From Bimuria novae-zelandiae CBS 107.79 (Eukaryota > Ascomycota > Dothideomycetes > Pleosporales > Didymosphaeriaceae): a stretch of 64,000 bases of DNA. Position numbers and translations under genes: made by a program. The notes beneath the pieces are model-generated. The model saw nothing but the letters and a program-made list of their open reading frames with translations. It was not told where the DNA came from and did no database searches. Every line of letters starts with the position of its first letter. Position 1 is the stretch's first letter. The DNA lies in NCBI GenBank assembly GCA_010015655.1, contig ML976674.1, forward strand, positions 124,001 through 188,000, written 5' to 3'. Positions 7,577 through 62,600 of the stretch are shown piece after piece.

Positions 7577-7663
7577 CTATCCTTCTCCTTCCTTTGCATG
7601 TCCTTATGCAGTAGCTAATATTCTGTTAGAGATTAAATAAATTTAATTAGTTAGACCGCTATA

Positions 7664-8170: not shown

Positions 8171-10703
8171 TAAGGTTCCCTACTAGTTCTTATATATTAT
8201 GGCTCTCTAGCTATCCTTCTTATTTTACTAGGTACTTATGCTAATGCCTAATCTTTTATAGATCCCTAATTACTTTAACCTTATACTTTTTGTCCTTAAG
8301 TTTAAGTTATATTTTTAGTTCGGCGCTTAGTAGTGCTAGTTCTAATAATAACTTATAAAAGACTAGGTAGATCCGCGTATCTATAAGTAACTATAGTTTA
8401 AAATTAACTAGTCCTCTAACCTCTTAAATTTTAAATAGTCCTTTTTAAAGATTATTTAGTTTTTTACTTAGCCTTATTATTTTAAGATTTTTTTGTAAGA
8501 GAAGGACTTTATCCCCCTCTTTAAAAGTTAGTCCCTTAATCCTTTTCTTATTTACCTATTTCGCTATTTATTTATTACGTTACGCAATATTCTAGCGTAG
8601 TGCCTTATACAGATCCCGCATAAGTTTGGCTTTATTAGCTACGTCCTTTGCGATGCTTTGGATGTCTAATGGATTCTGGTGAGTCGTCAGCTCACATCCA
8701 TGGTTGGCGTAATATAGTAAGTATCCCGTAGTCGCCAATCTTGCGCTATTGTATGCTAGCTAGGCTATTAGTAATAGCTTAACCTAGTTATCTTAGAGCT
8801 TATTTATATATATTTAGAGGTATTGTTCTAGCGTTTAGTTAGTACGTTCTATTTAGCTATCTATTTTAGAATAAAAGCTCGTCGTGAGCTTATGCTTAAT
8901 CCCTAATTTAGGTGTAAACGTGGTCTAATATAATAATATAAATATCTTAGCCCTATCTGTGATAAGCTTGTTAGGTTATTTAACCTATAATATTGGTTCT
9001 TATTTTACTATATAGGCTAGTTCTTTTGCTAATATAGCTTTCCTAATTAGCATAAACCTTAACTCCTTAGTAAGTTAATAAATTATAACTAAAATTAAGA
9101 CGTAGGGGTCCTTATTCCTTAGTGCTAGTAATGCTAGTAGCTTTATAATAAAGTCTATAGTTACGCTAGACTATAGCCTTAGGGGTGGCTTTAATAACTT
9201 TAAGAGGCTATTGGGCTTATATCTTTTAGGCTTATTTTTATAACAGGCTAAATAGTTACCTAGCACCTTCTATACTACCTAGCGTAGCCTAGGGATAGTA
9301 TATTCGTTCGTAATTTAACGCGTTATTTTAGTAATCTTTAGGTATCCCTAGTCCTTATCTTCGTGTAGTTTTTTAATTAGTAACGAAGCTATTTACTTAC
9401 TAATCTAGATGCGGTTTTAATAGTCCCGTGCTGTTAATCTTATAGCTTAGTAAAGGTTATACGCTTAGTAATCCTCGTCTGTAAGCCTATCGTAATCCTA
9501 TATCCTATCTATAATTAGTTTATAGTAGGTAAAGTCTGCGCGTTGCACATCTAGTGCTAGCGCGAGCTATGTCTTATTATAGTAAAGGGTTCTATCCTCC
9601 GCCTAGGTTAGGATTATAATATAGTTTCCACTATTGTCTTCTTCTATAAGGTCTAATTATTTACTAAGTATGTCTACTATAGCGTTCGCGTTCCCTGGCA
9701 AATGCGTAATATAAAAGTTAAATTCTGCTATCTATTTAGACTATTTAGCCTATCGCTAATTAAGCTTTTTAGTTATTATAAAGCGTGTTAGATTAAGGTA
9801 ATTAGAGAATACCTCTATCTAATACTTAGCTCCCTTAAGCTATACTTCCTATTACTTGAAATAGTTAATAATTACTAGTAGTTCTTTATTATAGATCTTA
9901 TAATTAAGCTCTACTCCTAAGAGCTTTCTTGCGTAATAGAAGACGGGTCTCTATTTCTTGTTATTATATTCTTGTAGTAATACGGCCCCTATCGCATAGT
10001 TGGATGCGTTGGTGTAGATGCGATGTCGCCGCTTTAGGTTGTATATCTATAGTAGGGGTGCCGTTAGGAATAGGCGCTTTAGCTATTCGAAGGCTCTTTT
10101 TTCTATTTCTTATAAAGGTTACTATTTTCCTATCTTCGTAAGTTCCGTTAGCGGAGCGGTGACCTTTAAGTAGTTCCTAATAAATTTATAATAGAAGTTA
10201 GTAAAGCCTAGGAAAGATTAGATATCTTTTACTAATTTTAGTAATAGCTATTCTTCTATTATCGCGATTTTCTTTAGATCTATCTTAACACCTTTCCAGG
10301 ATATTACAAATCCCAGATATTCTGTTTCCGTGACATGGAATTTGCATTTCTTAGGGTGTAGGAGCAGTCTATGCTTTTATAACTTTTATAACACCTTGTA
10401 AACATGTCCCTTGTGTTCTTCTAGTGTTTTACTCAAGTATATTAATATATCGTCGAGGTACGCCGTGCAGAATACGTCTAAGTATTTATATAATACTTAA
10501 TTTATAAGCTCCTAAAAGGTTGCTAGTACGTTAGTTAGCCCTATTAGTATAACTATATACTTAAAAAGGCTATATCGCGTGCGGAAAGCTATCTTCCACT
10601 TATAACCTTTTACTATCTAAATCCTATAGAACCTATCCTAGATATTAAATTTTATAAACTACTTAGCTCCTTAGAGTCGATCTATGAGCTCCGTTATTAG
10701 CGG

Positions 10704-11148
10704 TGTTACGGACCAGAAGTCAACGGTGGGACGACAGGCCTTATGACGACAACCAGGCCCCACCTCCGACTTACGTAATGTCCTAGGCTGTCCCAGGCGC
10801 CAAGACTATGGGATATTATGGGACCACGTGACCCAGGGTCACGTGACGTCCCAGAAAATCCCATGGGATCCCACAAGGTTAGGATATGGGATACCATGGG
10901 ACTCTATGGGACAAGGAGGATATATATACAGGATAGTTTCCTTTATACGCTCCTTGTAGTCAACTGAAATATCTTCTGTGCGAGTACCTTCTCCTATACA
11001 GACTGATAGTTATCTTATTCGCTATAAGATTGGATTGTTCAACCACGCTTAATTGTCGCATCAACTCGTACCATTGAATAACCCGTGAGACGCCTCATTA
11101 CCTTACCGCCCTAACCCGGATCGGACCAAGCGAGTGCACCTCATAACA
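10704..11148 (+). repeat. Solo gypsy LTR nested in the RT region of element A
   Basis: 445 bases, TGTTA..TAACA, flanked by the duplication AGCGG (10699-10703 and 11149-11153). Removing it with one duplication restores the pol reading frame around the LLPLITELI-type RT segment. It has the same U3 type as the LTRs of A and B but in the opposite orientation to A. It is clearly less RIP-mutated than the surrounding pol sequence. Confidence 0.92.
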
Positions 11149-13848
11149 AGCGGTAATAGGTAGTAGTTTTTAACTATAATAGTATTTAGCTATCTATAAT
11201 CTATATAGAGTTGTAGTCTACCGTCTTTCTTTTAAATAAAGAGTATAGGGAAGGCTATAAGGCTTTAACTAGGTTTTTACTTTCCTAAGCGTAGATTTTT
11301 TTGTATTAGCTCCTTTAACTCTTTTTTCTATTTATAGGTAAGGGGCCTTAGGCGTTTTAGCTATAGCTTAGCTCTTTCTACTAGTAGTATCTCGTAATCC
11401 TACTCCTTATATTTAGGCAGGATAGTCTTATCGTGTTCCTTGAATAGATCTGTAAATTCCTTATATTCTTCTAGTAGACCTAGGTTGTTAGGGACTATCT
11501 TAGCCTCCTGGACCTATATATAGTGCACCCGTCTTAGGTATTATTATAAAATCCTGTCTATCTTGCATACTAATATTTCTTGTATCTTAGATAGTTGGTT
11601 CTCCTTCCTTGCCTAAGGTTTCTGGAGAGTTTCCCTTACTCCGGGGCTCGCCTGAGCCATTACTAGTGGATTTTGGGGAAGGATTATTCGTTTAATCTAG
11701 TCTATTTGTAGATTATATTATTCTAGCTATTCGTATCCGACGATAGCTTCTATGTCTCCTATTTCTATAATAGTAAAAACGTGTTAGCTTTCTAGGCCTT
11801 CTATGTTAACTTATACCGGCGCCGTTTCTAGGCGTAGCTAACTATTACTATATCCTTATAATCGGGTCCTATCTGCAAGTCCTATTTATAGTAGTGTCCT
11901 CTTATTATAATATAGTATATTATATTTTTTAACTACTTATAGGGCAATTAGACACGCGTCTGCCCCTAGGTCTATAAGTGCTATAACACGATATCTATGC
12001 ACTGTAATATCCTTAATTAAATGTTTCTTAACTTGGCGAGTGTTAACTTAATAAGCTATAATAATTATATTATTACTAGTATAGCTTATTACCTAGTAAT
12101 AGTCTAGTTTTTTAAGTCCTTAGAGTTCTTAGACTTGTTTTAGCCCTCCTATAAGGCTTCTACCTCTTAGATCTATCCTTTAAGCTAGGCTAGCTTCGAG
12201 ACTTCTTTAATCTAGTACTACTTATATTATTATTAGTACAGCGCGTAGGTCTCTCTAATTCTATTAGAATTGTATACCCCCTAGTTCCCGTGCTATAGGT
12301 AATTCAGGGTAAGATATTCGTTCTAGGCCAATACATTATGCCCTAAGTAGCTATTAGAGGAAGTTACTTTCTCTTATAGGCTTAGGTGCGCGAAGCACTA
12401 CTGGTTATATTAGTCTTATTTAATTATTAGGTAGTCCGCGTCTCTTCCTAGCTATATATTTCTTATTATTATACTAGTGTCGCGGGGGTCTAGGCCTTAA
12501 GGAAACTAGCCTATCTCGAATTTCTATTACCTGTGTATTTTATAGGTAATATTCAAGTATTAATACTAGCTATTCTATTTATAGTGCTTAGCCTAATAAG
12601 CTAAAAAGTACTTATAGTAGTTATTAGATACGCTGCACTAGTCTTTCTTAAGTCTATAGTATTCTAAGCCTCCTAGAAAGTAAGAGGCTTTAACTCTAGC
12701 CTTATAGTGCTATCGGCATCCTTTTCGTGTGCATTACTACTCTTTGGCATGTATATATTATTCTTGTATTATAACCTGGCGTAGGTACTATTTCGGGGGT
12801 CCTTATAACTTTTTGGCAAGCTAATAAGCGTCCTACGCATGTAGTCCTTAGATAATTACCTTTATTTTATACTAAGACAAGTAATATAATATACTATTAT
12901 ATATCTAGCAAGTGTTATCTGCTAGTTACTAAAAGATCTAGTATTTATAGAGGGTTTTTTATTGCTCTCCCTATTCTTTTGCTAGTTCTAGGATTTCTTA
13001 TGTAAGATCTACTTCCTCCGCTTCTACTAGCGTAAGGGTGGTTATGGCTACTTATAGGAGGTTAGTCGTATTAGCCTTAATTTCCTAACCTTCGCAGTCC
13101 TTGGCGAAGTAGCCTTATTTACCGCATTAGAGGCAGGCCTTATCCTTAAACCTCTATTCTTACTCTTCCTGCGAGATGCCGCTCTTGCCCTAGTAGCCTT
13201 TCTTTAGCTTATACAGCTGTTTTCCCTTGCTATTTCTCTTTTTGTACCATTAGGCTTTGTTAGTTATAATAACATCTCTATCCTAGTCTCTTCCAACGGG
13301 TCTAGCGTTGTTTTCTTTTCTAGAGAGCAGTCGGGTACTATGCTATTTCTCTAGCTTTCGCTTATATAGGCGATTATCTACTTTAATAGCATTATTAATA
13401 AGTTTTTCTAGATCGTCTGCTTTTCCTTAGTAGACTAGTTTGTCTTTAACTAATTCTTTTAGTCTATTATAGTAGGTAATTATAAGCGGGGCTTCTCCCT
13501 ATTCGTTAAATTCTGCCACGATCTATTTAAACTCTAGTATATAAAGTACTATAGATCTTTCTTAACGCAGGCATTAAAGGCGTATTTTAGCTTAATATCC
13601 CTTATTAATAGTGCTAAATATTCCTTTTATAGCCTTATAAAAGGATTCCTAGTCTTTAAAGGCGTCCTTAGTAGCGTCTAAAGTATAATTCTCTAGTTTA
13701 CTATGCTTAAGGAAGTTATTAATTATTAGCTTAGCCTATATAGCTACTTTATCCTGCATATTTATGTAGGTGACTAAGATCTTGTCTTATTCTATATTAA
13801 ACTTTCCTAGGTTATAGCGGATAAATAGTTCTATCTAGGTTAGGAACG

Positions 13849-14304
13849 TGTTAGGATCTGAACGAGCGGCAGCAAAGGAGGGCCCACGGCGGCCATGGCG
13901 GGGTAACCCATAGTGGGACTGCACTACCGAGGTCACGTGATGTACCCTCACGCCAAGCCACACCATCACGCCAAGACAGTGATGGCAGTACCATCACTGA
14001 TGCCAGTACCATTAGACCGAGGTCATGATGGCATAGAAACGGGTGATGACAGAAGAAAGCCTACGGGTATATAGAGAGCTTGAATATCCCTCTGGATATG
14101 CGTGTTCAACCTGTTCATCAATCTATCGTTTGGATCTGAATAAGCAACCTTGTTGATTTGATTGTGCTGTACACACCTTCGATACCAACGCCCTTAGTGA
14201 CAGGCGCAAGCTATCACTACAACCCTTTCCCGTCCTACCAGTACTCCTGCCCGAGAACCAACCTTAGCCCCTTAGAGAATAGCTACCTCTTTGGGATCTT
14301 AACA
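13849..14304 (+). repeat. Solo LTR of a second family nested in gag of element A
   Basis: 456 bases beginning TGTTAGGATC and ending CTTAACA, flanked by the duplication GAACG (13844-13848 and 14305-14309). Element D at about 60,880-60,905 has the uninterrupted site. A TATA-like GGGTATATAGAG near 14,067 suggests plus orientation. Base composition is near normal, so it escaped RIP. A RIP-decayed relative of its last 140 bases lies at 15911-16051. The internal region of its parent element is not in the window. Confidence 0.88.
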
Positions 14305-14535
14305 GAACGTTCCTGGATGGCCTTTCCTAGAGTAGGGTTTAGGCTTTAAAACCTTTAGTTAATACTTCGTATCTTTTTATTTACTTATCTTCTTACTTAT
14401 CTAGTTAATAATTTCTTATAGCTAGGCTATCTAAGCTACTTATTTAATAACTATTTCTTTTAGGGTCTTTTCCTTAGGTGCTAAGGCTGCGGTGGTCGAA
14501 CTAGGTCCTACTATTATACTATAGGGTAGTTAAAG

Positions 14536-14983
14536 TGTTATAAGGCTCTTACACCTTATTCTAATCTAAGTTAGAGTAGTAAGGTATCGTAGTACTTTAT
14601 AAATTATTTAGTAGTATAAGTTAGTGCGACACTTAGCGCGAGGCTAGATAATTTAATTTTATAATAAAATAAGATAACTATTAGTTTGTATAGGAGGACG
14701 TACTCGCATAGAAGATATGTAAGTTAACTACAAGGAGCATAATATAGGAAACCGTCCTGTATATATATCCTCCTTGTCCCATAGAATCCCACGATGTCCC
14801 ATAACCCGGAACCGTAGGATCCCATGGGATTTCCTGGGACATCACGTGACCAGGGTTACGTGGTCCCACGGTGTCCCATAGTCTTGGCGTCTGGGACAGC
14901 CTGGGACGTTACGTAATCCTGAGGTGGGGCCCGGATGCCGTCATAAGGCTCTCCGTCCCACCGTCGGCTTCTGGACCGTAACA
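14536..14983 (-). repeat. Element A 5' LTR
   Basis: 448 bases, TGTTA..TAACA, target duplication ATTAC at 14984-14988. The sequence just inside (complement of 14518-14535) reads CTTTAACTACCC rather than a tRNA-type TGG primer site. Its inner U5 edge is heavily RIP-mutated. Confidence 0.92.
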
Positions 14984-16221: not shown

Positions 16222-16671
16222 TGTTACGGTCCAGAAGTCGACGGTGGGACGGAGAGCCTTATGACGGCATCCGGGTCCCGCCTCAGGCTTACATAACGTC
16301 CCAGGCTGTCCCAGACGCCAAGACCATAGGACACCGTGGGACCACGTGACCCCTGCTCACGTAACGTCCCAGGAAATCCCATGGGATCCTACGATGCCAG
16401 GATATAGGACATCGTGGGATTCTATAGGACAAGGAGGATATATATATATAAGACAGTTTCCTTCGTTATACTCCTTATAGTTAACTTATATATTTTCTAT
16501 GCGAGTACGTTCTCCTATATAGACTAATAGTTATTTTATTTATTATAAGATTAGATTTTCTAGCCTCGCGCTAAGTGCCGCATTAACTTATACTATTAAA
16601 TAATTTATAAAGTACTATAATACCTTACTACCCTAATTTAAATTAGAATAAGGTATGAGAGCCTTATAATA
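16222..16671 (+). repeat. Element B 5' LTR
   Basis: 450 bases beginning TGTTACGGTCC; the expected terminal ATAACA is mutated to ATAATA. U3 has CGG triplets at 16227, 16242, 16250 and 16265 and CCG at 16271. The U5 end facing gag is more mutated than in the 3' LTR. Confidence 0.92.
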
Positions 16672-19600
16672 CTTTAACTATTTTATAGTATAATAGTAGG
16701 ACCTAGCTTAACTACTATAGCTTTAGTACCTAAGGAAAAGACCTTAAGGGAGATAGTTATTAAATAAGTAGCTTAAATAGCCTAGCTATAGGAAATTATT
16801 AACTAGATAAATAAGAAGATAAGTAAATAAGAAAATATAAAATATTAACTAAAGGTCTTAAAGCCTAAACCCTACTCTAAGAAGGGCCACCTAGGAACGT
16901 TCCTAATATAAATAGAACTATTTATCTATTATAACCTAAGAAGGTTTAATACGGAATAAGATAAGATCCTAGTTACTTATATAAATATATAGGATAAGGT
17001 AGTTATATAAGCTAGACTAATAATTAATAACTTTTTTAAGAATAGTAAGGTAGAATATTATAATTTAGACGCTACTAAAGACGCCTTTAAAGACTAAGAG
17101 TCGTTTTATAAGGCTATAAAAGGAATATTTAGTACTATTAATAAAAGATATTAAGCTAAAATACGCCTCTAACGCCTACGTTAGGAAAAATTAGTAGTAC
17201 TTTATATATTAGAGTTTAAATAAATCGTGGCAGAACTCGACAAATAGGGAGAAGCCCTACTTATAATTACCTACTATAATAGACTAAAGAAATTAGTTAA
17301 AGACAAATTAGTTTACTAAGGAAAAGTAGACGATCTAAAAGAGCTTATTAATAATGCTATTAAAGTAAATAATCGCCTATATAAGCGAAAGCTAGAGAAA
17401 TAGCATAGTACCTAATTACTCTTTAGAAAAGAAAATAACGCTAGACCCGTTAGAAGAGATCGGGATAGAGATATTATTATAACTAATAAAGCCTGGTGAC
17501 ATAAGAAGAAAAACGGCAAAGGAAAGTAGCTATATAAACCTAAAAAGAACTACTAGGGTAGAAGTGGAATCTTGCAAGAAGAGCAAGAATAGAGGTTTAA
17601 GGACAAGGCCTGCCTCTAATGTATTAAGCAAGGCCACTTCGCCAAAGACTACGAAGGACAGGAGACTAAGGTTAATACAACTAACCTCCTACGAGTGGCT
17701 ATGGCCACCCTCGTGCCAGCAGAGGCAGAGGAGATAGACCTCACACAAGAGATCTTAGAACTAATAGAAGAATAGGGAGAGGGACGAAAAACCCTTTACA
17801 AATACTAGATCTTTTAACAACTAGTAGATAACACCTGCTAGATATATAGTAGCACGCTATATTACTTGTCTTAGTGTAAGGCGAAGGTAATTATTTAAGG
17901 ACCACATGCGTGGGACGCTTATTGGCTTGCCGAAAAGCTACAAGGACCCCCGAAGCAGTACCTACGCTAGGTCACGATACAAGAACAATACGCACATGCC
18001 AAGTAGTAGTAATACACACGAAAAGGATGCTAATAGCACTTTAAGGCTAGAGTTAAAGCCACTTACTTTCTAAGGGGCTTAAAATACTATAAATTTAAGA
18101 AAGACTAGTGCAGCGTACCTAATAATTATTATAAATACTTTTTAGTCTATTAGGCTAAGCACTATAAGTAGAATAGCTAGTATTAATATTTTAATATTAC
18201 CTGCGAACTATATAGATAATAAAAGTTTAAGATAGGCTAGTTCCTTTAAGGCCTAGATCCTTAGAATACTAGTATAATAATAGGGAGCACGTAGCCAGGA
18301 AAAAAAGTAAACTACTTAATAATTAAATAAAACTAATATAACCTATAGTACTTTATATACCTAAGCCTATAAGAAGAAGTAGCTTCTTTTAATAGCTATT
18401 TAGGGTATAGTGCATTAGCCTAGAACGAATACCTTACTTTAAATTGCCTATAATATAGGAATTAAGGAGTATACAAGTTTAATAAAATTAAAGAGATTTA
18501 TACGCTGTATTAATAATAATATAAGTAGTATAGGGTTAAAGAAATCTTGAAGCTAGCCCGACTTAAGGGTTAGATATAAGAAGTAGAAGCCTTATAAAAG
18601 AGCTAAAACAAGTCTAAAAACTCTAAGAACTTAAAAAACTAGATTATTACTAGGCAATAAGCCACACTAGTAATAGTATAATTATTATAGCTTATTAAGC
18701 AGATACTCGCTAAGTTAAGAAACACTTAATTAAGAATATTATAGTACACGGGTATTATATTATAGCACTTATTAACCTAGGGGTAGACGCATGTCTAATA
18801 GCCCTATAAGTAATTAAAAAATATAATATACTATATTATAATAAGAGGACACTATTATAAATAAGACTCGCGGATAGGACCTAGTCGCAGGGATGTAGTA
18901 ATGATTAGCTACGCCTTAAGACGGCGCTAGTATAAGTTAATATAGAAGGCCTAGAAAGCTAACATGTTTTTACTATTATAAAAATAGGAGATATTAAAGC
19001 TATCGTAGGGTATAAATAGCTAGAATAATATAATCTATAGATAGACTAGATTAAACGAACAATCCTTCCCTAAAATTTACTAGTAATAGCTTAGGCGAGC
19101 CCTGGCGAAAGGGAAACCTTTTAGAAACCTTAGGCAAGAAAGGGGAACTAACTATTTAAAATATAAGAAGTATTAGTATACAAGATAGATAGGATCTTAA
19201 AGCGATACTTAGGACAGGTACACTATATATAGGTTTAGGAGGCTAAAATAGTCCCTAATAACCTAGGTCTACTAGAAGAATATAAGAAATTTATAGACCT
19301 ATTTAAAGAGCACGATAAAACCGTCCTGTCTAAATATAAGGAGTAGGATTATAAGATACTACTAGTAGAAGGAGCTAAGCTATAGCTAAAACGCCTAAGG
19401 CTCCTTACCTATAAATAAGAAAAAGAATTAAAAGAGCCAATATAGAAGAAACTACGCTTAGGGAAATAAAGACTTAGTTAGAGCTTTATAGCCTTCCTTA
19501 TACTATTTATTTATAAAAAAGACAGCAGGCTACGACTCTATAAAAATTATAAATAGCTAAATACTATAATAGTAAAAATCTGCTACCTATTACTGTTAAT

Positions 19601-22140
19601 AACGGAGCTTATGGATCGATTCCGAGGAGCTAAGTAGTTTATAAAATTTAATATTTAGGATAGATTTTATAGAATTTAAATAGTAAAGGAGTTTAAGTAG
19701 AAAATAGCTTTCTACACGCGATACGGCCTCTTTAAATATATAGTTATAATAATAAAGTTAACTAATGTACTAGTAACCTTCTAGGAACTTATAAATTAGG
19801 TACTATATAAATACTTAGAGGTATTCTATACGGCATACCTTAATAACATATTAATATACTTAAGCGGAACTCTAGAAGAACACAAGAAATATATTTATAA
19901 AGTGTTATAAAAGTTATAAGAGTATAGATTACTCTTACACTTTAAGAAATATAAATTCCACGTTACAGAAACGGAATATCTAGGATTTATAATATCCTAG
20001 GAAGGTATTAAGATAGACCTAAAGAAAATCGCGATAATAGAAGAATAGCTACTACTAGAATTAGTAAAAAATATTTAATCTTTTTTAGGCTTTACTAACT
20101 TCTATCGTAAATTTATTAGAAACTACTTAAAGGTTACCGCTCTACTAATAAAACTTACGAAAATAGGAAAATAGCGACCTCTATAAGAAGTAGAGAAGTA
20201 AGCCTTTAAATAGCTAAAGCGCCTATTCCTAACGGCACCTTTACTATAAATATACGACCTAGAATAATAATATTATATCTATACAGACGCATCGGATTAT
20301 GCGCTAGGGGTCGTACTACTATAAGAATATATTAATAAGAAGTAAAGACTAGTCTTCTATTATATAAAGAAACTCTTAGGAGTAGAACTTAATTATAAGA
20401 TCTACGATAAAGAACTGCTAGCTATTATTAACTATTTTAAGTAATAGAAAGCACAGCTTAAGGGAGCTAAATACTAAATAAAGGTGTTTTTTAATTATCT
20501 TAATCTTACGCACTTTACAACGACTAAAAAGCTTAATTAATAATAAGCTAAATAGTTAGAATAAATAGTAGAATTTAACTTTTATATTACGCATTTACTA
20601 AGAAATATAAACGCTGTAGCAAACGCACTTAGTAGATAATTAGATCTTATAGAAGAAAATAATAGTAGTAACTATATTATAATCCTAACCTATGTAAAGG
20701 ATAGAATCCTTTACTATAATAAAATATAGCTTGCGCTAATACTAGAGGTGCAACGCGTAGACTTTACCTATTATAGGCTAGTTATAAATAGAATACAGGA
20801 CTATAATAGGCTTATAAATAAGAACTACCAAGCGTATAACTTTTACTAAGCTATAAGATTAATAGCACGAGACTACTAAAACTATATCTAGATTAGTAAG
20901 TAGATAGCTCCGTTGCTAATTAAGAAGCTACATAAAGACAAGGACTAGGGATACCTAGGGATTACTAAAATAACGCGTTAAATCGCAAACGAATACGCTA
21001 TCCCTAGGCTACGTTAGGTAGTATAAAAGGTTCTAGGTAACTATTTAGCATATTATAAAAATAAGCCTAAGAGATATAAGCCCTATAGCCTCTTATAGCT
21101 ACTAAAGCCACCCCTAAGGGCATAGTCTAGTGTAACTATAGACTTTATTATAAAGCTACTAGTATTACTAGCACTAAAAATAAGGATCCCTATAACTTAA
21201 TTTTAGTTATAATCTATTAACTTACTAAGAAGTTAAGGTTTGTGCTAATTAAGGAAGCTATATTAGCGGAAGAATTAGCCTATATAGTAAAATAAGAACT
21301 AATATTGCAGGTTAAACGACCTAATAAATTTATTACGGATAGGGCCAAGATATTTACATTATTATATTAGACTATATTTATAGCTAAATTAGGGATTAAG
21401 CATAAGCTTATAATAAGCTTTTACCTTAAAATAGATAGCTAAACAGAGCGTATAAACTAAACGCTAGAATAATATCTCTAGATATACGTAAACAAGCTTT
21501 AAGATAATTAGGTAGAGCTATTATTAACAGCTTAACTGGCATACAATAGCGCCAGATCGGCGACTACAGGGTACTCACCATACTATGCCAACCATGGATG
21601 TGAGCCGACGACTTACTAGGATCTATTAGACATCCAGAGCATTACAAAGGATGTAGCTAATAAAGCTAAACTTATATAGGATTTATATAAAACACTACAC
21701 AATAACATTACGTGGCGTAATAAATAAATAGCGTAATAAGTAAATAAGAAAAAAATTATAAGACTAACTTTTAAAAAGGGGGATAGAGTTCTCCTCTCGC
21801 GAAAAAATTTTAAAACTATAAGGCTAAGTAAGAAACTAGATAACCTTTAAAAGGGACTATTTAAGGTTAAAGAGGTTAAAGAACTAGTAAATTTTAAACT
21901 ATAATTACTTATAAATATACGTATACACCTAGTTTTCTATAAGTTATTATTAGAACTAGCACCACCAAACACTAAGCTAAAGATATAACTTAAACTTAAG
22001 AATAAAAAGTATAAGATTAAGGTAATAAGGGATCTATAGAAAATTAGGCGTTAGTATAAGTACTAAGTAAAATAGGAAGGATAGATAGAGAGCTATAATA
22101 CGTAAAAATTAATAAGAAATCTTACTAACTATAAAGAGGT
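16672..22140 (+). pseudogene. RIP-degraded gag-pol of element B
   Basis: Motifs legible across stops are CIKQGHFAKDY (zinc knuckle with the last Cys codon mutated), LINLGVDACLIAL (protease), an RT block ending in YLNNILIYL, an integrase tail with TTGYSPYYANHGCEP (21,555-21,605) and a degenerate chromodomain before 22,140. Asp-to-Asn and Cys-to-Tyr replacements are those that RIP makes (G to A). No frame is long enough to code for a functional polyprotein. Confidence 0.8.
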
Positions 22141-22631
22141 CTTAAAGAAGTTCTACTAGAAGTATCTAAGAAAGCTAAGGCTAAAGGTTTAAAATTATTA
22201 AGATTAAAAGGTAGAGGATAGATAAACTAGTTTAAAATAAAAAAGCTAAGTATAAGACCCCTTTCTAATTAAGTAATATTTTAGCCTAATAATTTTATCC
22301 CCTTAAGACGTTTAATCTCCTTAATAAATTTTATTAAGTTAGTAAGGAGCTTTTTTTTACGCTTTTTAAGTAAACGCTTTTACTTTAGTAACTTTTTCTA
22401 TTTATTATAAGTAGCCTAGAGGGCTACTATAGCTACTTCTTTCTTTACTACTATTACCTTTTTTAGGCGCTTAAGCCTATCCACCTTAGAATTAATTAAG
22501 AAGAAATTTAAAACTATAAGTTTTACTAGCTTATACTTCGCAACGCTATTCTTATAATAGTTACTATACTATATTTTAAAAAATAATAGTATATAGGTTA
22601 AACCCTTCTTCGCGCAGTATTTATAGGACAC
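22125..22631 (-). pseudogene. Antisense accessory gene of element B, Zn2Cys6-like, RIP-mutated
   Basis: A 169-codon frame of the same length as 7664-8170 and clearly homologous to it (shared KKGLT, NSVAKYKLV and TSLRPLYS-type end). The first cysteine pair is complementary between copies: element A keeps the first Cys (SCKYY) and B keeps the second (SYKYC). This points to an ancestral CX2C start. Several stops are present, and GTG occupies the apparent start. Its end overlaps the chromodomain end of pol on the other strand. Element D holds a better preserved relative. Confidence 0.55.
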
Positions 22632-22744
22632 TATAATAATCTAACTAATTAAATTTATTTAATTTTTAATAGAATAATAATAGAGAATATTTTAAGAGGA
22701 TATTAGCTACTGCATAGGGACATGTAGAGGAAGGAGGAGGATAG

Positions 22745-23194
22745 TGTTACGGTCCAGAAGTCGACGGTGGGACGGAGAGCCTTATGACGGCATCCGGGTC
22801 CCGCCTCAGGCTTACATAACGTCCCAGGCTGTCCCAGACGCCAAGACCATAGGACACCGTGGGACCACGTAACCCCTGCTTACGTAACGTCCCAGGAAAT
22901 TCCATAGGATCCCACGATGCCAGGATATAGGACATCGTAGAATTCTATAGGACAAGGAGGATATATATATACAGGATAGTTTCCTTTATTATACTCCTTA
23001 TAGTTAACTTATATATCTTCTGTGCGAGTACGTTCTCCTATATAAACTAATAGTTATCTTATTTATTATAAGATTAAATTATTTAGCTTTACGCTAAGTG
23101 CCGCATTAACTTATACTATTAAATAATCTATAAAGTACTACGATACCTTACCGCCCTAACCTAGATCGGAACAAGGTGTGAGAGTCTTATAACA
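22745..23194 (+). repeat. Element B 3' LTR
   Basis: 450 bases with TGTTACGGTCC start and TAACA end, then the duplication CTTGC. The inner U3 edge carries extra RIP-type changes relative to the 5' LTR; the outer U5 edge carries fewer. Confidence 0.92.
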
Positions 23195-23488
23195 CTTGCT
23201 AATAGTACTATTAGCTATAAAACTAAGAAAATTTCTTATTATTTATTTAGTAAGTAGTAGGCTATATTTAGTAAGCTTATTAATATATTATATAAGCTCC
23301 TACTCTTATTATAGGCTAAGTTTTCTACGTGTAGAGGCTGCAGCTTCACGCAACTGCGTAAGCGCGTTATGCCTACGCGTAAACGTAGATCGTACAACGC
23401 CATACTTTTTCGCGATTTTTGTATAGTTGATAGATTCTCCAGGTTCCAGCGATTCTATATCTGCAAGCGCAGCGTCGATAGCGTCCAT
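23195..23488 (-). pseudogene. N-terminal part of a pogo-type transposase
   Basis: Starting from ATG at 23486-23488, the minus-strand frame reads MDAIDAALADIESLEPGE, then an HTH of the psq/CENP-B N-terminal type (YTKIAKKYGVVRSTFTRRH). A QxxL-type linker follows before stops begin near 23,310. The family usually continues with a second HTH and a DDE domain. These lie at 14989-16221, on the far side of element B. The first ~60 codons are not RIP-mutated, whereas the rest is. The frame is open a further 35 codons upstream to 23593, but MDAID is the usual start in this family. Confidence 0.75.
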
Positions 23489-53653: not shown

Positions 53654-54105
53654 TGTTACGACCACGAACCCCACAAGGATGAAGAAGCCAGACAATTACG
53701 CCAAGAGAGTAATTATTAACGAAGTAGCAGAGTTAACGGGACCTAACAGGGCGCGGGGCAGCTTAGTTAGCAGTCACGTGACAAAGTCCCGCATAAAGGG
53801 AAGTCCCATGGGACTACTATAGTCCCTGGGACTACAGGGCCTTGGCGGGACTACGAAGAAGGAATAGGCTAGTATATAGTATGGCAACTTTCCTATTGTT
53901 GTTTCCTTCCTTGTAGTTAACTTATATATCTTCTGTGCGAGTACGTTCTCCTATACAGACTAATAGTTATCTTATTTATTATAAGATTAGATTGTTTAGC
54001 CGCGCTAAGTGTCGCATTAACTTATACCACTAAATAATCCGTGAAGCACCACGATACCTTACCGCCCTAACCCGGATCGGACTAAGGTGTGAGCGCCTCA
54101 TAACA
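53654..54105 (+). repeat. Solo gypsy LTR, third U3 type
   Basis: 452 bases, TGTTACGACC..TCATAACA, flanked by CAAAA (53649-53653 and 54106-54110). The last ~230 bases match R-U5 of elements A, B and D. The first ~220 bases are a different U3 with TCACGTGAC and several GGGAC/GTCCC words. Confidence 0.9.
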
Positions 54106-54415
54106 CAAAAGATAGAAGAAAAAAGAAAAGGGAAGACAGGCCTAAGATATTATTTAAGAAAAGAAGTAAAAACATTTAAGATATTATAAAACTAATAAGA
54201 AAGTTCTATAATATTATTATATATATTTATAGTTTAGCTAATTATATAATATAGTGTAAAGATCGCGATAACAAAATTATTCCTCTTAATAATTATATAA
54301 GATAGAATAGCTAGTTTACTATATTAAATATAGCTCTAGAGGATAGAGTAAGGTCTGCACTTTAGCTTTATATTAATCATTATTAAGATAATATCTTAAA
54401 AGATAATATTCCTAT

Positions 54416-54948
54416 TGTTATGAGGCTCTCACACCTTGTTCCAATCCGGGTTAGGGCGGTAAGGTATCGTGGTGCTTCACGGATTATTTAGTAGTATAAG
54501 TTAATGCGACACTTAGCGCGAGGCTAGATAATTTAATCTTATAATAAAGTAAGATAACTATTAGTCTATATAGGAGAACGTACTCGCACAGAAGATATAT
54601 AAGTTAACTACAAGGAGGGAAACAACATAGGAGAATCGTCACACTATATACTAGTCTGTTTCCTCCCTTGTCCCTGGGTGCTCTGTTATTCCCCACAGAG
54701 CGCAGTCGCTCTGTGGGCCCTTACAGAGCGTCGGTGTGTCGGCGCTCTATCCGCCAAGACAGAGCGTCATCACGTGATACGCCCGTTTGGTATGTCGGCG
54801 CTTTGTCCGCCAAGACAAAGCGTCGTCACGTAATACATTAGTCTAGCGTGTTGCCCTACGGCCCTCGTGCCGTGCGACCTGCGTCCCTTCCTGGACACCT
54901 CGTCCACTATAGAGATTCATTCCTACGCTATCCTTCGGGATCGTAACA
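54416..54948 (-). repeat. Element D 3' LTR
   Basis: 533 bases. R-U5 resembles the other gypsy LTRs. U3 is unique to D and holds two 56-base-spaced units with CGG-N8-CCG (54740-54753, 54796-54809) and ATCACGTGAT. Confidence 0.93.
54649..54860 (-). promoter_or_regulatory. U3 promoter region of element D with paired CGG triplets
   Basis: Each unit contains an inverted CGG/CCG pair separated by 8 bases next to an inverted GCGCTCTGTC/GACAGAGCG pair and CACGTGA. Zn2Cys6 proteins of the Gal4 class typically bind CGG triplets as dimers. This is a candidate binding region for the protein encoded at 55103-55681; the link is inference. Confidence 0.45.
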
Positions 54949-54962
54949 CTATCCCCCCTCTT
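54949..54962 (-). other. Polypurine tract of element D
   Basis: Minus strand reads AAGAGGGGGGATAG directly before the 3' LTR. Elements A and B have tracts ending in the same GGATAG. Confidence 0.85.
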
Positions 54963-55102
54963 AAAGGTATTGTCCCGATATCTTTGTATTTCGGTTGTCG
55001 CGGCGTCGCCCGGGGTTAGCGCCGCAGCGCCTACATAAGGTCGCCCGTCCCCGCCCTTGTCGTAAGTAGTCATCCTCTCGGATTTCCCTAGCCTCCCTGA
55101 CC

Positions 55103-55681
55103 ATGCCAAAAGCTTCAAAACCTGCGTCCACGCAGCGACATCACGATCGTGTGGCTGCTATTCTTGCTACAAACGTAGAGATGCCTTCTCCTTGTGGGCG
55201 TTGTAAGAAGAAGGGTTTAAAGTGTATTGTAGAGATTCAGACGGGTTTCTGTGCTTTCTGTATTCAGGCAAAAGCTCGTTGCGACCTTGTGTTAATAAAC
55301 ACGGAGCGTCGCGAGCTTAAGCAGCGTAAGAGGCAGGCTCGTATTGCCTTTCTACAGGCCTAAGAAGAACTTGCCCGCGCGGAGCGGGAGCTTCTTGAGA
55401 TTAAGAAAGAAGAGCGGAGGCGTGTGCTTAAAGATATTACCTTGACTATGGAGTTGGAAGAGTTGGAACGTGCCGCGGGGCTCCTAGAGCCAATTCCTAG
55501 GGGTACGATCGCTCCTCCCATCGTTTTATCGCCCCCGCCCGTAGGCTGGTCACAGGCTGATTTATTTACTTCCTTTAATCCCTCCGTACCCTTCGACTTC
55601 TCTGAGTTTCTTGCAGATCCGGCCGCGGGACTTCTGGATGCTCCTCATAGAACCTCTCCAGCGCTGTCCTGCAGTTCGTGA
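55103..55681 (+). pseudogene. Antisense Zn(II)2Cys6 regulator-like gene of element D, one nonsense codon
   Basis: From ATG 55103 (context GACCATGCC) the frame runs 193 codons with a single TAA at 55361-55363. CAA to TAA would be RIP. Residues from about 31 show C-x2-C-x6-C-x8-C-x2-C-x6-C (CGRCKKKGLKC ... CAFC ... ARC), the exact spacing class of Gal4-type binuclear zinc clusters. A Lys/Arg linker and a charged coiled-coil-like helix follow (ELARAERELLEIKKEERRR). The tail is aromatic/acidic (GWSQADLFTSFNPSVPFDF) and resembles an activation segment. The gene lies between 3' LTR and pol on the opposite strand, and its end overlaps the pol end. Base composition is normal, unlike the rest of the element. 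It is likely a nuclear DNA-binding protein; its target is inferred, not shown. Confidence 0.72.
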
Positions 55682-58600
55682 GGTTTTGTACTAGTTCCCA
55701 TATATTGTGGTCCTCTGGCCATCCTTCCCATTTCACTAGGTACCTGTACTAACGTCTAATTTTCCGTAGATCCCTAATTACTTCGACCTCGTACTCCTTG
55801 TCCTCAAGTTTGAGTTAGGTCTCTAGTTTGGCGTCTGGTGGTGCTGGTTCCAGCAGCGATTTGTGGAAAACTAGGTGTATACGTGTATCTATAGGTAACT
55901 ATAGTTTAAAATTAACTAGGCCTCTAACTTCCTAGATTTTAAATAGTCCTTTTTAAAAGTTATCTAGTTTTTTGCTTAGTCTCGTTATCTTAAGATTTTT
56001 TTGTAAGAGGAGGACTCTATCCCCCTCCTTAAAGGTTAGTTTTATAATCCTTTTCTTATTTGCTTATCGCGCTATTTATTTGTTACGTCGCGCGATGTTC
56101 TCGTGTAGTGTTTTATATAGGTCCTATATAAGTTCGGCCTTATTAGCTGCGTTCTTTGCAATGCTCTAAATATCTAATAGATCCCAGTGAGTCGTTGGCT
56201 TACATCCATGGTTGGCGTAATATGGCAAGTACCCCGTAGTCGCCGATCTTGCGCTATTGTATGCCAGCTAGGCCGTTAGCAATAGCTTAACCTAGTTATC
56301 TTAAAGCTTATTTACATACATCTAGAGATACTATTCTAATGTTTAGTTTATTTACTTAGTTTAGCTATCTATTTTAAGATAGAAGCTCGTCGTAAGCTTG
56401 TGCTTAATCCCTAATTTAGCTATAAACGTGGTCTAGTATAACGATATAAATATCTTGGCCCTGTCTATAATAAACTCGTTAGGTCGTTTAACCTGTAATA
56501 TTAGTTCTTGTTCTACCACGTAGGCTAGTTCTTCTACTAATATAGCTTCCCTAATTGGCACAAACCTCGACTCTTTAGTAAGTTAATAGATTATAACTAA
56601 AATTAAGTCGTAGGATCCTTATTCCCTGGTGCTAGTAATACTAGTAACTTTACAATAAAGTCCATGGTCACGCTTAACCATAGTCTTAGGGGTGGCTATA
56701 GTGGCTGTAAGAGGCCATAGGGCTTATGTCTCTTAGGCTTATTCTAGTAACAGGCTAAGCAGTTGCCTAAAACCTTCTATACTATCTAGCGTAGCCAAGG
56801 GATAGTATATTTGTTCGCGATTTAACGCGTCGTTTTAGCGATCCCTAGGTGTCCCTAATCCCTATCTTTATATAATTTTTTAATTAGTAGCGGAGCCATC
56901 TGCTTGCTAATCTAGATATGGTTTTAATAGTCCTATACTATTAATTTCGTGGCTTAGTAGAGGTTATATGCTTGGCAATCCTCGTTCGTAAGCCTACTAT
57001 AATCCCGTATCCTATCCACGACTAGTCCGTAATAGGTAAAGTCTACGCGTTACACCTCTAGTGCTAGCGCGAGCTATGTTTTATTATAGGAAAGGGTCCC
57101 GTCCTTCGCGTAGGTTAAAATTACAACATGATTACCTCTATTGTCTTCTTCTATAAGATCCAATCGTTTGCTAAGTGCATCTGCTACAGCATTTACATTT
57201 CCTAGTAGATACGTGATGCGAAAGTCGAATTCCGCTATCTATTTAGACTATCTAGCCTGTTATTAATTAAGCTTCTTAGTCGTTGTAAAGCGTGTCAGAT
57301 TAAGGTAATTAAAGAATACCTCTATCTAATATTTAGCTCCCTTAAGCTGCGCTTCTTATTACTTAAAATAGTTAATAATAGCTAGTAGTTCCTTATCGTA
57401 GATTTCGTAGTTAAGCTCTACCTCTAAGAGTTTACGTGCGTGGTAGAAGACGGGTCTCCACTTACCGTCGTTATATTCTTATAATAGGACGGCCCCTAGC
57501 GCATAATCTAATGCGTCTGTGTAGATGCGATGTCGTCGCTCCGGGTCGTACATCTATAGTAGGGGTGCTGTTAGGAATAGGCGCTTTAGTTATTTAAAAG
57601 CTTCCTTCTCTGCTTCTTATAGAGGTCGCCATTTTCCTATCTTCGTAAGTTCTATTAGTAGAGTGGTAACTTTTAAGTAGTTCCTAATGAATTTGCGATA
57701 GAAGTTAGTAAAGTCTAAGAAAGACTAGATATCTTTTACTAATTATAATAGTAGCTATTCTTCTATTATCGCGATCTTCTTCAGGTCCATCTTAACACCT
57801 TCTCGGGATATCACAAATCCTAAATATTCTGTCTTAGTAACATGGAACTCGCACTTCTTAGGGTGTAGGAGTAATTAATACTTTTATAACTTCTATAGTA
57901 CTTTGCGTACATGTCCTTTGTGCTCTTCCAAGGTTCCGTGTAAGTATATTAAGATATCGTCGAGGTACGCCGTGCAGAATACGTCCAAGTATTTATATAG
58001 TACTTAATTAATTAACTCTTAGAAGGTTGCTGGTGCGTTGGTTAGCCCTATAGGCATAACTATGTACTTAAAAAGGCTATATCGTGTGCGGAACGCCGTT
58101 TTCCACTTGTGCCCTTTCGCAATTCGAATCCTGTGGAATCTATCTTGGACGTTGAATTTCGTGAAGTATTTAGCTCCTTGGAGTCTATCTATGAGCTCCG
58201 TTATTAGTAGTAACAGGTAGCGATTTTTAATCGCCACGGCGTTTAGCTATCTATAATCTATATAAAGTTATAGCCTGCCGTCTTTCTTACAAATAAAGAG
58301 TATAGGGAAGGCCGTAGGGCTCTAACTAGGCCGCTATTTCCCTAAGCGCAGGTTCTTCTAGATTAGCTCTTTTAACTCTTTTTCTTACTCGTATATAAGG
58401 GGCCTTAGGCGCTCTAGCCGTAACTTGGCTCCTTTTACTAGTGGTATCTCGTAATCCTATTTCTTGTGTTTAGGTAGGATAGTCTTGTCGTGTTCCTTAA
58501 ATAGGTCTACGAATTCCTTATATTCTTTTAGTAGACTAGGGTTGTCTAGGACTATCTTAGTCTCCTAGACCTATATATAGTGCACCCGTCCTAGGTGTTA

Positions 58601-61100
58601 CTTTAAAATCCTATCTATCTTACATACTAATATTTCTTATATCTTAGATAGTCGACTCCTTTTTCTTGCCTAAGGTTAGGGAGTTTCCCTCCCACTAGGG
58701 CTCGCCTAAGCCTTCGCTAGTGGGTCCCGGGGAAGGATTGTTCGTTTAATCTAGTCTATCTATAGATTGTGTTATTCTAGCCATTTATATCTAATAATAG
58801 CTTTAATGTCTCCCATTTCCGCGATAGTGAAGACGTGTTAGTTCTCTAGGCCTTCTATGTTAACTTATACCGGCGCCGTCTTAAGGCGTAGCTAACCGTT
58901 ACTGTATCCTTATAATTAGGTCCTGTCCGCGAGTCCTATTTATAGTAGTGTTTTCTTATTATAATATAGTATATTATACTTCTTAACTACTTATAGGGCG
59001 ATTAGACACGCGTCTGCCCCTGGGTTAATTAGTGCTATAACACGATGTCTATGCACCGTAATGTCTTTAATTAAGCGCTTCTTAACTTAGCGAGTGTCTA
59101 CTTAATAAGCTATAATAATTACACTATTACTAGTGTGGCTTGTTACCTAGTAATAATTTAGTTTTTTAAATTATCGGATCCTTTATCTAAGGTTTTAGAC
59201 TAATTGGCGTCGGCTTCCTTAATCTAGTCCTAGACCTTAGATAGCTTAGAGACTTCCTTAATTTAGTGCTACTTATATTGCTATTAATACAGGGCGTAAG
59301 TCTCTCTAATTCTATTAGATTTGTATACTCCTTGATTCCTATGTTGCGGGTAATTTGGAGTAAGGCATTCGTTCTGGGCTAATACACTATGCCCTAGATA
59401 GCTATCTAAGGAGGCTACCTCTTCCTATAGGCTCAGGTGTGCGAAGCACTATAGGTTATATTATTTTTACTTAATTAACAAGTAGTCCGCGTCTCTTTCT
59501 AGCTATATATTCCTTATTATTGTGCTAGTGTCGCGGGGGTTTAAGCCCTAAGGGAACTAACCTGTCTCGAACTTCTATTGCCTGTGTATTTTATAGGTAA
59601 TGTCGAAACATCGGTGCTAGCCATTCTATTTGTAATACTTAGCCTAATAGGCTAAAAAGTGTTTGTGGTAGTTATTAGGTACGCTGCACTAGCTCTGCTT
59701 TAACCTATAGTGTTCCAAACCTCTTAGAAAATAGGAGGCCTTAACTCTAGCCTTAAAGTGTTGTTAGCATCCTTTGCGCGTGCATTGCCACCACTTAGCG
59801 TATTTATGTCGTTCCTGTATCGTGATCTGGCGTAGGTATTACTTTGGGCGCCCCTGTAACTTCTTCGCTAGCCAGTAGGCGTCCCATGCGTGTGCCCCTT
59901 AGACAATCACTTTTGCCTCATATTAAAATAATTAATATAGCGCACTACTGCACATCTAGTAGGTGTTGTTAGCTAGTCTTTAGAAGATCTAGTACTTAGG
60001 AAGGGTCTTTTGTTCCTCTTCCTCTTCTATTAGCTCTAGGATCTCCTGCGTAAGATCTAATTCGTCGGCTCCTGCTAGCGTAAGGGTGGCTATAGCCACT
60101 CGTAAGAGGTTAGTCGTATTAACCTTAGTCTCCTAATCGTTATAGTCTTTAGCGAAGTAGCCTGGCTTGCTATATTAGAGGTAGGCTTTATCTTTAAACC
60201 TTTATTCTTATTCTTCCTGCGAGATACTATTCTTGCCCTAGTAACTCTTTTTTAGTCTATATGGCTATTTTCCCTTGCCGTTCTTTCTTTTGTACTATTA
60301 GGCTTTATTAGTTATAATAATATCTCCGTCCTAGTCTCTTCCTGCGGGCCTGGATTAATTCTCTTTTCTAGTAAGTAGCCTAGTACTATGCTGTTTTTCT
60401 AGCTTACGTTTATATAGGCAATTGTCTACTTTAATTATATTATTAATAAGTTCTTCTAGGTCGTTTGCTTTTCCTTAGTAGACTAATTCGTCTTTAACTA
60501 ATTCTTTTAGTCTATTATAGTAGGCAATTATAAGTGGGGCTTCTCCCCATCCTTTAAGTTCTGCCTTGATCTGTTTAAACTCTAGTGTATAGAGTACCGC
60601 CGATTTTTCCTAACGTAGGCGCTAGAGGCGTATTTTGGCTTAATGTCCTTTATTAATAGTGCCAAATATTCCTTTCACGGCCTTACAAAAAGACTCCTAG
60701 TCCTTAAAGGCGTCTTTAGTGGCGTCTAAACTATAATCCTCTAATTTGCTATTCTTAAAGAAATTATTAATTATTAGTCTAGCCTACGCGACTGCCTTGT
60801 CTTGTATATTTATATAGGTAACTAGGATCTTATCTTATTCCGTATTAAACTTTCCTAGGTTATAATAGATAAATAGTTCTATCTAGGTTAGGAACGTTCC
60901 TAGGTAATCCTTTCCTAAATAGGGTTTAGGCTTCGGGACCTTTAGTTAATGTTTCGCATTTTCCTATTAGCTCATCTTCTCGCTTATCTAGTTAATAATT
61001 TCTTATAGTTAGGCTATCTAAGCCGCTTGTTTAATAATTATCTCTCCTAGGGTCTTTTCCTTAGGTGCCGGAGCTGCGGTGGTCGAACTAGGTCCTGCTA
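55575..61100 (-). pseudogene. RIP-degraded gag-pol of element D
   Basis: The minus-strand polyprotein is interrupted by many stops, but a 72-codon RT stretch is open at 58019-58237 (LLLITELIDRLQGAKYFTKFNVQDRFHRI and later IVMPIGLTNAPATF). The 3' end is the best preserved: a chromodomain (YLVKWEGWPEDHNIW) runs into TALERFYEEHPEVPRPDLQ and a stop at 55575-55577. If that stop is original, pol and the antisense gene overlap tail to tail by 107 bases. The gag start is not identifiable. Mutation is heavier in the 5' two thirds than near the 3' end. Confidence 0.8.
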
Positions 61101-61122
61101 TTGTACCGTAGGGTAGTTAAAG

Positions 61123-61655
61123 TGTTATAAGGCTCTCACACCTTATTCTAATCTAAGTTAGGGCAGTAAGGTATTGTAGTGCTTTATAGATTATTTAGTA
61201 GTATAAGTTAATGCGACACTTAGCGCGAGGCTAGATAATCTAATCTTATAACAAAGTAAGATAACTATTAGTCTATATAGGAGAACGTACTCGCACAGAA
61301 GATATGTAAGTTAACTACAAGGAGGGAAACAACATAGGAGAATCGTCACACTATATACCAGTCTGTTTCCTCCCTTGTCCCTGGGTGCTCTGTCATTCCC
61401 CACAGAGCGCAGTCGCTCTATAGGCCCTTACAGAGCGTCAGTGTGTCGGCGCTCTGTCCGCCAAGACAGAGCGTCATCACGTAATACGCCCGTTCGGTAT
61501 GTCGGCGCTCTATCCGCCAAGACAGAGCGTCGTTACGTGATACATTGGTCCGGCGTATTACCCCACGGCCCTCGTGCCGTGCGACCTGCGTCCCTTCCTA
61601 GACACCTCGTCCACTATAGAGATTCATTCCTGCGCTATCCTTCGGGATCGTAACA
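61123..61655 (-). repeat. Element D 5' LTR
   Basis: 533 bases matching 54416-54948. The CGG-N8-CCG units are at 61447-61460 and 61503-61516. A TATATAG box (complement of 61351-61357) lies about 34 bases before GTAGTTAA (complement of 61311-61318), the likely start of R. GTAGTTAA is complementary to the TTAACTAC just inside the LTR (complement of 61113-61120). Confidence 0.92.
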
Positions 61656-62600
61656 CCTATAATAGCTAAATAAGTATAGCTTTATATAATCCGTGATTTC
61701 CTTTAATCTTTTCACGAAGTAACTATGTTTCTTTAAGGAGATTATACAACACTTAAAAAAGTTTTAGTATTAATTTACTTACTTTAGAGGAAAATATATA
61801 TATTATTAGTAAGTTATATAACACTTTTAGCTAGGCCTCTTTAACAAATTCTTTTCTTCTAGGAGAAAGCTAATAAGGCTAATAATAAGTTTATAGCTCC
61901 TTAACTTTAGCGGGCCTAAGACAAGTGCGTAACTTATATCTAAAAATTAAACGCTTCTCTGTACTATCTAGTAGCACGCGTTTTCGATCTAGAAGCTCGT
62001 ACAGGTTTCTTAAAAGTGGAAGACGAGGAGGGAGTAGAGAAGCTTATAGCTAAAGGAGAAAAGAAAGTCTATATTATACGAAAGCTTTAGGAGAGATTCC
62101 GTAATAAAATAACGCCTTTAGCTATGCCATGCAAGTCTAGCAAGCTCCCCCTTTAATTTAAAAATAATATAACTAGCTTCTAGAAAGAGATCTAGGAGCT
62201 TAAGTTTAAGAAATATTATCTATAAAGCTAAGATAAGTTTAATACTTATATTAGTAAAAATTAGACTATACTAGAAAGTAGTATAATAACTATTTAATAG
62301 TAAAGTTAGTCTTTTTAGTGTAAAAGGTTTCTATAACTTTTACAGCTTGCAATTAAAGTTCTTTTAATACCTAAAATAAGTAATAAGCTAAAGAAAGTAT
62401 TTTTAGATTTTTAGCGTCGTGTTCTTTAAGATTATACAAAGACAAATCTATAACTACTTAAAGTATTAAAATATGCGAAAGACTAGACTGCATAAGGCAT
62501 TCTAAGTATTCCTTTATAATATAAATAAATTACCTTACTACTAGGGATTACGCAATCTCCTTTCTGTACATATTTTATAGGTTTAAGTCCTTTTTAAGTA
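61656..62600 (+). pseudogene. hAT transposase, C-terminal part, RIP-degraded
   Basis: Position after element D and high density of TAA/TAG codons fit the rest of the hAT transposase. A Lys/Glu-rich stretch (EKLIAKGEKKVY) and short helical segments can be read, but the hAT dimerisation motif is not legible. Assignment rests mainly on location inside the hAT ends. Confidence 0.45.

Follow-up and report, generated by a model that had tools for sequence, protein, structure and literature searches.

In human T-cell leukaemia virus type 1 (HTLV-1), an antisense gene at the 3' long terminal repeat (LTR) encodes HBZ, a transcription factor that acts in the nucleus and controls the viral LTR, and foamy viruses encode Tas/Bel1, a DNA-binding activator of their own U3. 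In the Gal4-type regulators Pho7, Put3, Gal4, Ppr1 and Hap1, a coiled coil follows the six-cysteine cluster, the spacing rule of such Zn2Cys6 clusters being C-x2-C-x6-C-x(5-12)-C-x2-C-x(6-8)-C. In plants, the aORF-3R genes, among them maize Grande gene23 and those of rice RIRE2, Silene Retand and PvRetro13, are conserved antisense genes located between pol and the 3' LTR; an antisense promoter lies upstream of the gene in Grande, and the products are described as bearing no clear resemblance to proteins in databases and as being of unknown function (PMC7264820). Here we report that element D, a retrotransposon in a 64,000-nt stretch of the genome of the fungus Bimuria novae-zelandiae CBS 107.79 (contig ML976674.1; this whole stretch is the window, within which positions are counted), carries an antisense gene for a Zn2Cys6-like protein. 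We put the probability at about 0.72 that this protein is a self-encoded regulator, with a transactivator favoured, that would be expressed from the element, dimerise and bind operators in the U3 of that element. This reading builds on the conservation of the gene, its position, the purifying selection acting on it, the arrays in U3, and the pairing of arrays with regulators across different element backbones.

A conserved antisense gene family opposite gag-pol

Element D (54416-61655, gag-pol on the minus strand) is flanked by a 5-bp target-site duplication, CCTAT (54411-54415 and 61656-61660). Its LTRs, likewise on the minus strand, are 93% identical across a 538-nt match, the 3' LTR with TG..CA ends lying at 54416-54948 and the 5' LTR at 61123-61655, and a polypurine tract read on the minus strand (54949-54966) adjoins the former. 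Pfam matches were obtained for two of seven decayed minus-strand pieces, namely Chromo in a C-terminal pol piece at 55575-55748 (39.1 bits, cut-off 25.1) and RVT_1 in a reverse transcriptase piece at 58019-58246 (32.6 bits, cut-off 29.6); the remaining five gave no Pfam match, integrase and the gag zinc knuckle having been sought, and zf-CCHC is present in the relative L039 (L-numbers denote loci carrying family members in the same genome, of which L019 = L039, L022 = L040 and L071 = L083 are duplicates). The element, with its paired LTRs, short target-site duplication, reverse transcriptase and C-terminal chromodomain, is thus a Ty3/gypsy chromovirus, and since RVT_1 and Chromo lie on the minus strand, the left LTR is the 3' LTR. 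An inverted LTR fragment is found at 54001-54105, 310 nt from the 3' LTR of D.

On the plus strand, a leader (54949-55102) leads from the LTR to the antisense start codon, and the antisense frame occupies 55103-55681. The initial annotation had described a 193-codon frame opposite gag-pol with Gal4-type cysteine spacing. The frame, on the strand opposite to that of the Chromo and RVT_1 pieces, and the spacing of its six cysteines (C-x2-C-x6-C-x8-C-x2-C-x6-C, zinc-cluster region at codons 31-60) are confirmed, but the frame is not open: within its 193 triplets, a TAA in frame (55361-55363) separates a stretch of 86 codons from one of 105. Over 107 nt at its 3' end (55575-55681), the frame overlaps the end of pol tail to tail, and similarity at the extreme C-terminus is therefore partly that of pol.

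An interrupted copy that scores below the Pfam threshold might be a chance open frame with chance cysteines, an explanation that becomes practically negligible in view of at least 150 genomic matches, public homologues, the selection described below and the alignment with zinc-cluster profiles. With the first open piece of the D frame as query, the best 150 of 236 candidates in the same genome, the window copy included, all matched at E ≤ 2.6e-6, and in three places (L018, L019 and L022) the frame is open to its usual end at 198-205 codons. The ratio of nonsynonymous to synonymous substitution rates (dN/dS) was calculated from 20 natural frames with at least 95 open codons (4 of 24 frames were shorter and left out), with no more than the first 130 codons of each taken into the comparison to exclude the overlap with pol. 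Its median was 0.22 (quartiles 0.18 and 0.25) and it stayed below 1 in 134/134 usable pairs, which are not independent of one another and are those of 190 in which the proportion of synonymous differences (pS) exceeded 0.15 and the ratio was finite (56 left out). The first, second and third codon positions showed 5724, 4383 and 8478 differences, a third-position bias that, together with dN/dS, indicates selection at the protein level. This speaks against the idea that the antisense transcript is the functional product, acting through double-stranded RNA and silencing with the protein incidental, and we consider that idea very improbable, even though such antisense roles are discussed for plant elements (PMC7264820).

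In a public protein collection, a query of type C (the antisense proteins are typed as A, B, C or E, and the backbones as A, B or C) retrieved 57 relatives at E ≤ 0.001 with 40-67% identity, and a type B query two; 59 proteins were fetched. One of these relatives could come from the species of the window itself, but not all of them can. The UniRef name of several begins with Zn(2)-C6 fungal-type, and the genera named are Pyrenophora, Bipolaris, Exserohilum, Alternaria, Sporormia and Lizonia, which belong to Pleosporales. Ten of the 59 (by a wider pattern; six by a first, stricter one), one of them from Bipolaris sorokiniana, end like the reading opposite the chromodomain of the window, for example FLLVPKCSGFLAIL compared with FVLVPIYCGPLAIL, a hint that the gene has this antisense place in other species as well; in D and L039-L043 the gene lies between pol and the 3' LTR. 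Judged from these sequences, the antisense Zn2Cys6-like gene is a real gene family under purifying selection, and the conservation on which the initial annotation had staked its claim is found across several named species.

A Zn2Cys6-like cluster, a long helix and an acidic tail

The exact cysteine spacing of D is kept in 56 of the 59 fetched proteins, and hhalign aligned the family profile to eight host zinc clusters at a probability of 74.6 (E 2.6e-5), as compared to 0.1-2.0 for 20 column-shuffled control profiles. With Pfam Zn_clus (PF00172), which had been proposed as a check, the match is weak: the window frame reaches 19.5 bits, below the cut-off of 21, and four relatives 15.7-18.3 bits, while 19 of 57 public family members match at E ≤ 0.1 (best E 5.7e-5) and 38 do not. 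No other fungal regulator domain was listed in the Pfam scans of family proteins, and seven of eight Foldseek matches in the PDB were Zn2Cys6 proteins, all of them weak. The Zn2Cys6-like identity is supported by the six-cysteine alignment to host clusters, and these weak matches would be consistent with a zinc-cluster fold.

The coiled-coil-like helix and the aromatic/acidic tail that the initial annotation had noticed recur in the relatives. Structural models predict a long helix at residues 75-135 of L040 and 66-131 of L039, and the tails, counted from a conserved GW motif over up to 45 residues (n = 42), have means of 6.7 for acidic, 0.43 for basic and 15.5 for large hydrophobic residues; acidic and hydrophobic compositions of this sort are frequent in activation domains. 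Two of the proteins, P0012 (Exserohilum turcicum) and P0014, have two zinc-cluster-like segments in tandem.

Half-site arrays in U3

The U3 next to the gene had been credited with two CGG-N8-CCG inverted triplets and hence with a matching promoter. Three are present in the 3' LTR, at 54740-54753 (a site of the initial annotation), 54796-54809 and 54859-54872; the first two lie in the two copies of one repeated segment, the third lies outside it, and a palindrome, CGCTTTGTC-N6-GACAAAGCG, overlaps the second. As a general feature of the family the motif did not hold up: of six elements tested, D has three copies per LTR and L043, which belongs to the same lineage, has three in one LTR and two in the other, and it is absent from the LTRs of L039-L042.

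Common to most lineages is instead an array of one half-site in U3, often in both orientations. Four exact CAGAGCG/CGCTCTG half-sites are found in D (starting at 54696, 54707, 54724 and 54760, and spanning 54696-54766), a number reached in 0 of 2000 shuffles (mean 0.04), and a palindrome, CCCACAGAGCG-N4-CGCTCTGTGGG, occupies 54692-54717. With no motif preselected, 6-mers were ranked by their excess over shuffles in 26 chosen U3s (3 of type A, 7 of E on the A backbone, 2 of E on the C backbone, 6 of C, 5 of C5 and 3 of B), each taken as a fixed 330-nt interval that starts 460 nt and ends 130 nt ahead of the cluster match. The top 6-mer of type A was CAGAGC (7.0 per U3, 0.19 expected), and CCATCC ranked first in both C (5.0, 0.24 expected) and C5 (4.8, 0.34 expected). 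For type E it was GTCCCA on the A backbone (6.1, 0.22 expected) as well as on the C backbone (6.0, 0.21 expected), with six copies in each of L079 and L080, a number that 0 of 5000 shuffles reached in either. The three type B U3s gave no clear top 6-mer; a motif picked by eye, TRATCC/GGATYA, has four, three and five sites in L017, L021 and L023, as many as were reached by 0, 1 and 0 of 2000 shuffles, respectively.

Several other features of these regions were noted. CTTGGC and CACGTG boxes are shared by U3s of different array types, for example at 54740-54830 of the window, and are possible host-factor sites. The B-backbone loci L018-L020 and L039 have a zinc cluster nearly as in L017, yet carry no recognisable array. 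In L040, a MITE-like insert (miniature inverted-repeat transposable element) at about 620-890, with a terminal inverted repeat, GGAAATACCTGCTCGACCC, read by eye, splits the LTR within U3, and, also by eye, the antisense gene is preceded by what appears to be other repeat sequence in L078 and by an AT-rich stretch in L057. An LTR element at 116-6302 of the window, with 248-nt LTRs and no 6-mer in more than three copies, served as a single control.

Array type follows the regulator across backbones

Two further elements of the window carry the same backbone as D with another regulator. One, at 7129-14983 (minus strand, as deduced from its alignment with D) and flanked by ATTAC repeats, has a decayed E-type antisense cluster at 7655-7879 on the plus strand; the other, of type E, lies in the opposite orientation at 16222-23197 (gag-pol presumably on the plus strand). 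Both have the R/U5 of D, a pol near that of D, GTCCCA arrays in U3 and decayed type E antisense genes. A solo-LTR-like copy at 10703-11130 is related to the LTRs of the 16222-23197 element and has TGGGAC/GTCCCA sites by eye.

Transversions are not produced by transition decay of the RIP (repeat-induced point mutation) kind. Counted in transversions only, D differs from the 7129-14983 element by 1% over the initial 200 nt of the LTR, by 20-31% in U3, leader and antisense gene, and by 0-9% in pol and gag, and their blastn homology ends at position 235 of D and restarts at 1218 in the chromodomain region, whereas between D and L043, which are of one lineage, the value rounds to 0% in each interval. 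By this comparison, the two elements have R/U5 and pol in common and a wholly different U3-plus-regulator block.

Regulators of type E are found on another backbone too. L079-L081 combine C-type pol with GTCCCA arrays and E-type proteins, R/U5 being C-type in L079 and L080 and masked in L081. L080 and L042 match at 88% over 206 nt in R/U5 and at 87% over 532 nt in pol, and between these stretches over only about 31 nt at the LTR end. An alignment of 166 residues gives 40% identity between the E protein of L079, which has the C backbone, and that of L078, which has an A-type pol and has lost its LTR. No DNA homology was detected in U3 or gene between L080 and either L082 or the 7129-14983 element, which have the A-type backbone; despite this, GTCCCA is the top 6-mer on both.

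Pairing was counted at 63 places with a complete U3 (62 once the duplicate L071 = L083 is removed), an array being at least three sites; L016, L022, L028, L048, L057, L060, L075, L078 and L081 were left out as their U3s are incomplete. A CAGAGCG array accompanies 7/7 type A regulators, a CCATC[CA] array 29 of the 32 of type C, and a GTCCCA array all 18 of type E (17/17 after correction, 15 of them on the A and 2 on the C backbone). The nine places that lack an array comprise six of type B and three of type C, and none of the places counted has an array that belongs to another regulator type. Array type thus appears to follow the antisense protein and not the backbone.

Several points limit how far this pairing can be taken as recognition. 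The motifs were derived from part of the loci counted, the few E-on-C copies are close relatives that amount to about one event, and regulator and U3 are linked neighbours; the evidence for recognition is therefore strong but not conclusive. In addition, TRATCC/GGATYA has no site in L018-L020, which carry the gene with no recognised array. These loci, the distance of only about 700 bp within which regulator and U3 lie, and the CTTGGC and CACGTG boxes, which suggest that host factors bind U3 too, would suit a protein that binds other targets, such as host genes or chromatin, next to U3 arrays that are enhancers for host factors, with the pairing due to linkage. We regard such a protein as improbable, given that the same top 6-mer marks E-type U3s on two backbones lacking detected U3 or gene homology and that no regulator is paired with the array of another type. 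The favoured explanation is still that the protein reads its own promoter, as the initial annotation had proposed; the correspondence of array and regulator types, which that annotation did not have, adds evidence for it, and the binding itself is predicted.

Within type C, L025, with a CCATCA array, has IAVSAECELF around the sixth cysteine, and L029, with a CCATCC array, has IAAHAECELY. L022, whose array looks CTATCA-like, has the residues of L025, and the groups compared were L022/L025 and L024/L029. The residues that differ are candidate specificity residues.

A model of self-regulation and cassette exchange

A start context was located in 37 of 71 loci. Of 28 C-type starts, 27 have TATAA[AG]T 55-57 bp upstream of the start codon, and 4 of 9 A/B starts have it at 65 bp, so that a TATA box at fixed distance precedes 31/37 starts; among 1930 background windows from these loci, 90 contained it. 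The leader of D has no TATAA[AG]T upstream of its antisense start. The conserved distance makes it a reasonable candidate proposal that the antisense gene has its own promoter.

In the model that we favour, the gene would be read inward from the 3' LTR toward pol to yield a product of about 200 residues, with an N-terminal Zn2Cys6 cluster, a coiled-coil-type helix of about 60 residues and an acidic/aromatic tail. The protein might dimerise via the coiled coil and bind the lineage-specific half-site array of its own U3, controlling gag-pol through the array and TATATA of the 5' LTR, and itself through the array of the 3' LTR, which sits upstream of the regulator gene. As both LTRs hold the same array, gag-pol and regulator would answer to one protein, and a transactivator is favoured because the tail resembles activation domains.

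The main rival to activation is that the protein binds the array and represses, as a copy-number or immunity factor that shuts incoming LTRs of the same type, the exchange of cassettes being an escape. In the seven loci measured, a distance of 14-51 bp separates the start of the array from the TATATA proposed for gag-pol, and transcription could be blocked by a protein bound there; the exchange of cassettes and coexisting specificities fit escape from cross-repression, and rapid change of specificity suits repression equally well. The tail, with its likeness to an activation domain, is less easily reconciled with it, and we hold repression to be unlikely, though a serious contender; the sign of regulation is predicted from sequence, and activation is preferred.

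We further propose, tentatively and at somewhat less than even odds, that regulator and operators are exchanged between elements as one cassette that sorts fungal LTR retrotransposons into regulatory groups. At reverse transcription, the U3 of the 3' LTR gives rise to that of both LTRs, and the regulator gene is adjacent to it, so that a single replaced stretch alters promoter and regulator alike. The exchanged block has its left border near the predicted U3/R boundary and its other end at the chromodomain. In the retroviral cycle, the first strand transfer of reverse transcription is obligatory and takes place at the U3/R boundary; with the left border at this site, one further template switch in the chromodomain could complete the swap.

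If these proposals are right, retrotransposons would hold a self-specific control of transcription, their groups being set perhaps by the compatibility of regulator and operator, and some public proteins named Zn(2)-C6 fungal-type would be retrotransposon genes. As the gene encodes a recognisable DNA-binding domain, has predicted targets within its own element, comes in several specificities and shows a backbone swap that arose in nature, the role of such antisense genes becomes directly testable. Overall, what the initial annotation observed has been confirmed in part, and what it made of the observation is partly supported.

Comparison with described systems

In an incomplete literature search, we found no description of an antisense Zn2Cys6 regulator of a retrotransposon with U3 operators. 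The main text of a survey of fungal LTR elements contains none of the terms 'antisense', 'zinc' and 'transcription factor' (PMC3248453); the accessible parts of two other papers treat other extra open reading frames or domains in retrotransposons and hold nothing that resembles such a gene (PMC9289625, PMC6338049), and in that of a third the matching search terms occur apart, with no joint description (PMC7014384).

The likeness of the family to Gal4-type regulators consists in the six-cysteine cluster and the coiled coil, along with weak fold matches. The family proteins differ in being short and encoded by retrotransposons, with Zn_clus scores below the cut-off in the five proteins scanned singly, and the top half-sites of their arrays are not CGG triplets. 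HBZ of HTLV-1 is a basic leucine zipper (bZIP) protein that works with host factors, whereas the fungal protein is a zinc-cluster protein for which we propose direct operators and a specificity that can be exchanged. Tas/Bel1 is encoded on the sense strand and is an unrelated protein, unlike the product of the antisense fungal gene. By analogy, a regulator swapped together with its adjacent operators as a block recalls the immunity regions of phages, of which the present system, if our reading is correct, would be the retroelement counterpart; here the carrier is a retrotransposon, and repression is only a rival reading. Among the systems compared are also the plant aORF-3R genes, which share with the fungal gene the antisense place and conservation between pol and the 3' LTR, but the gene reported here belongs to elements of a fungal host, its protein is Zn2Cys6-like, and candidate U3 operators vary alongside it (PMC7264820).
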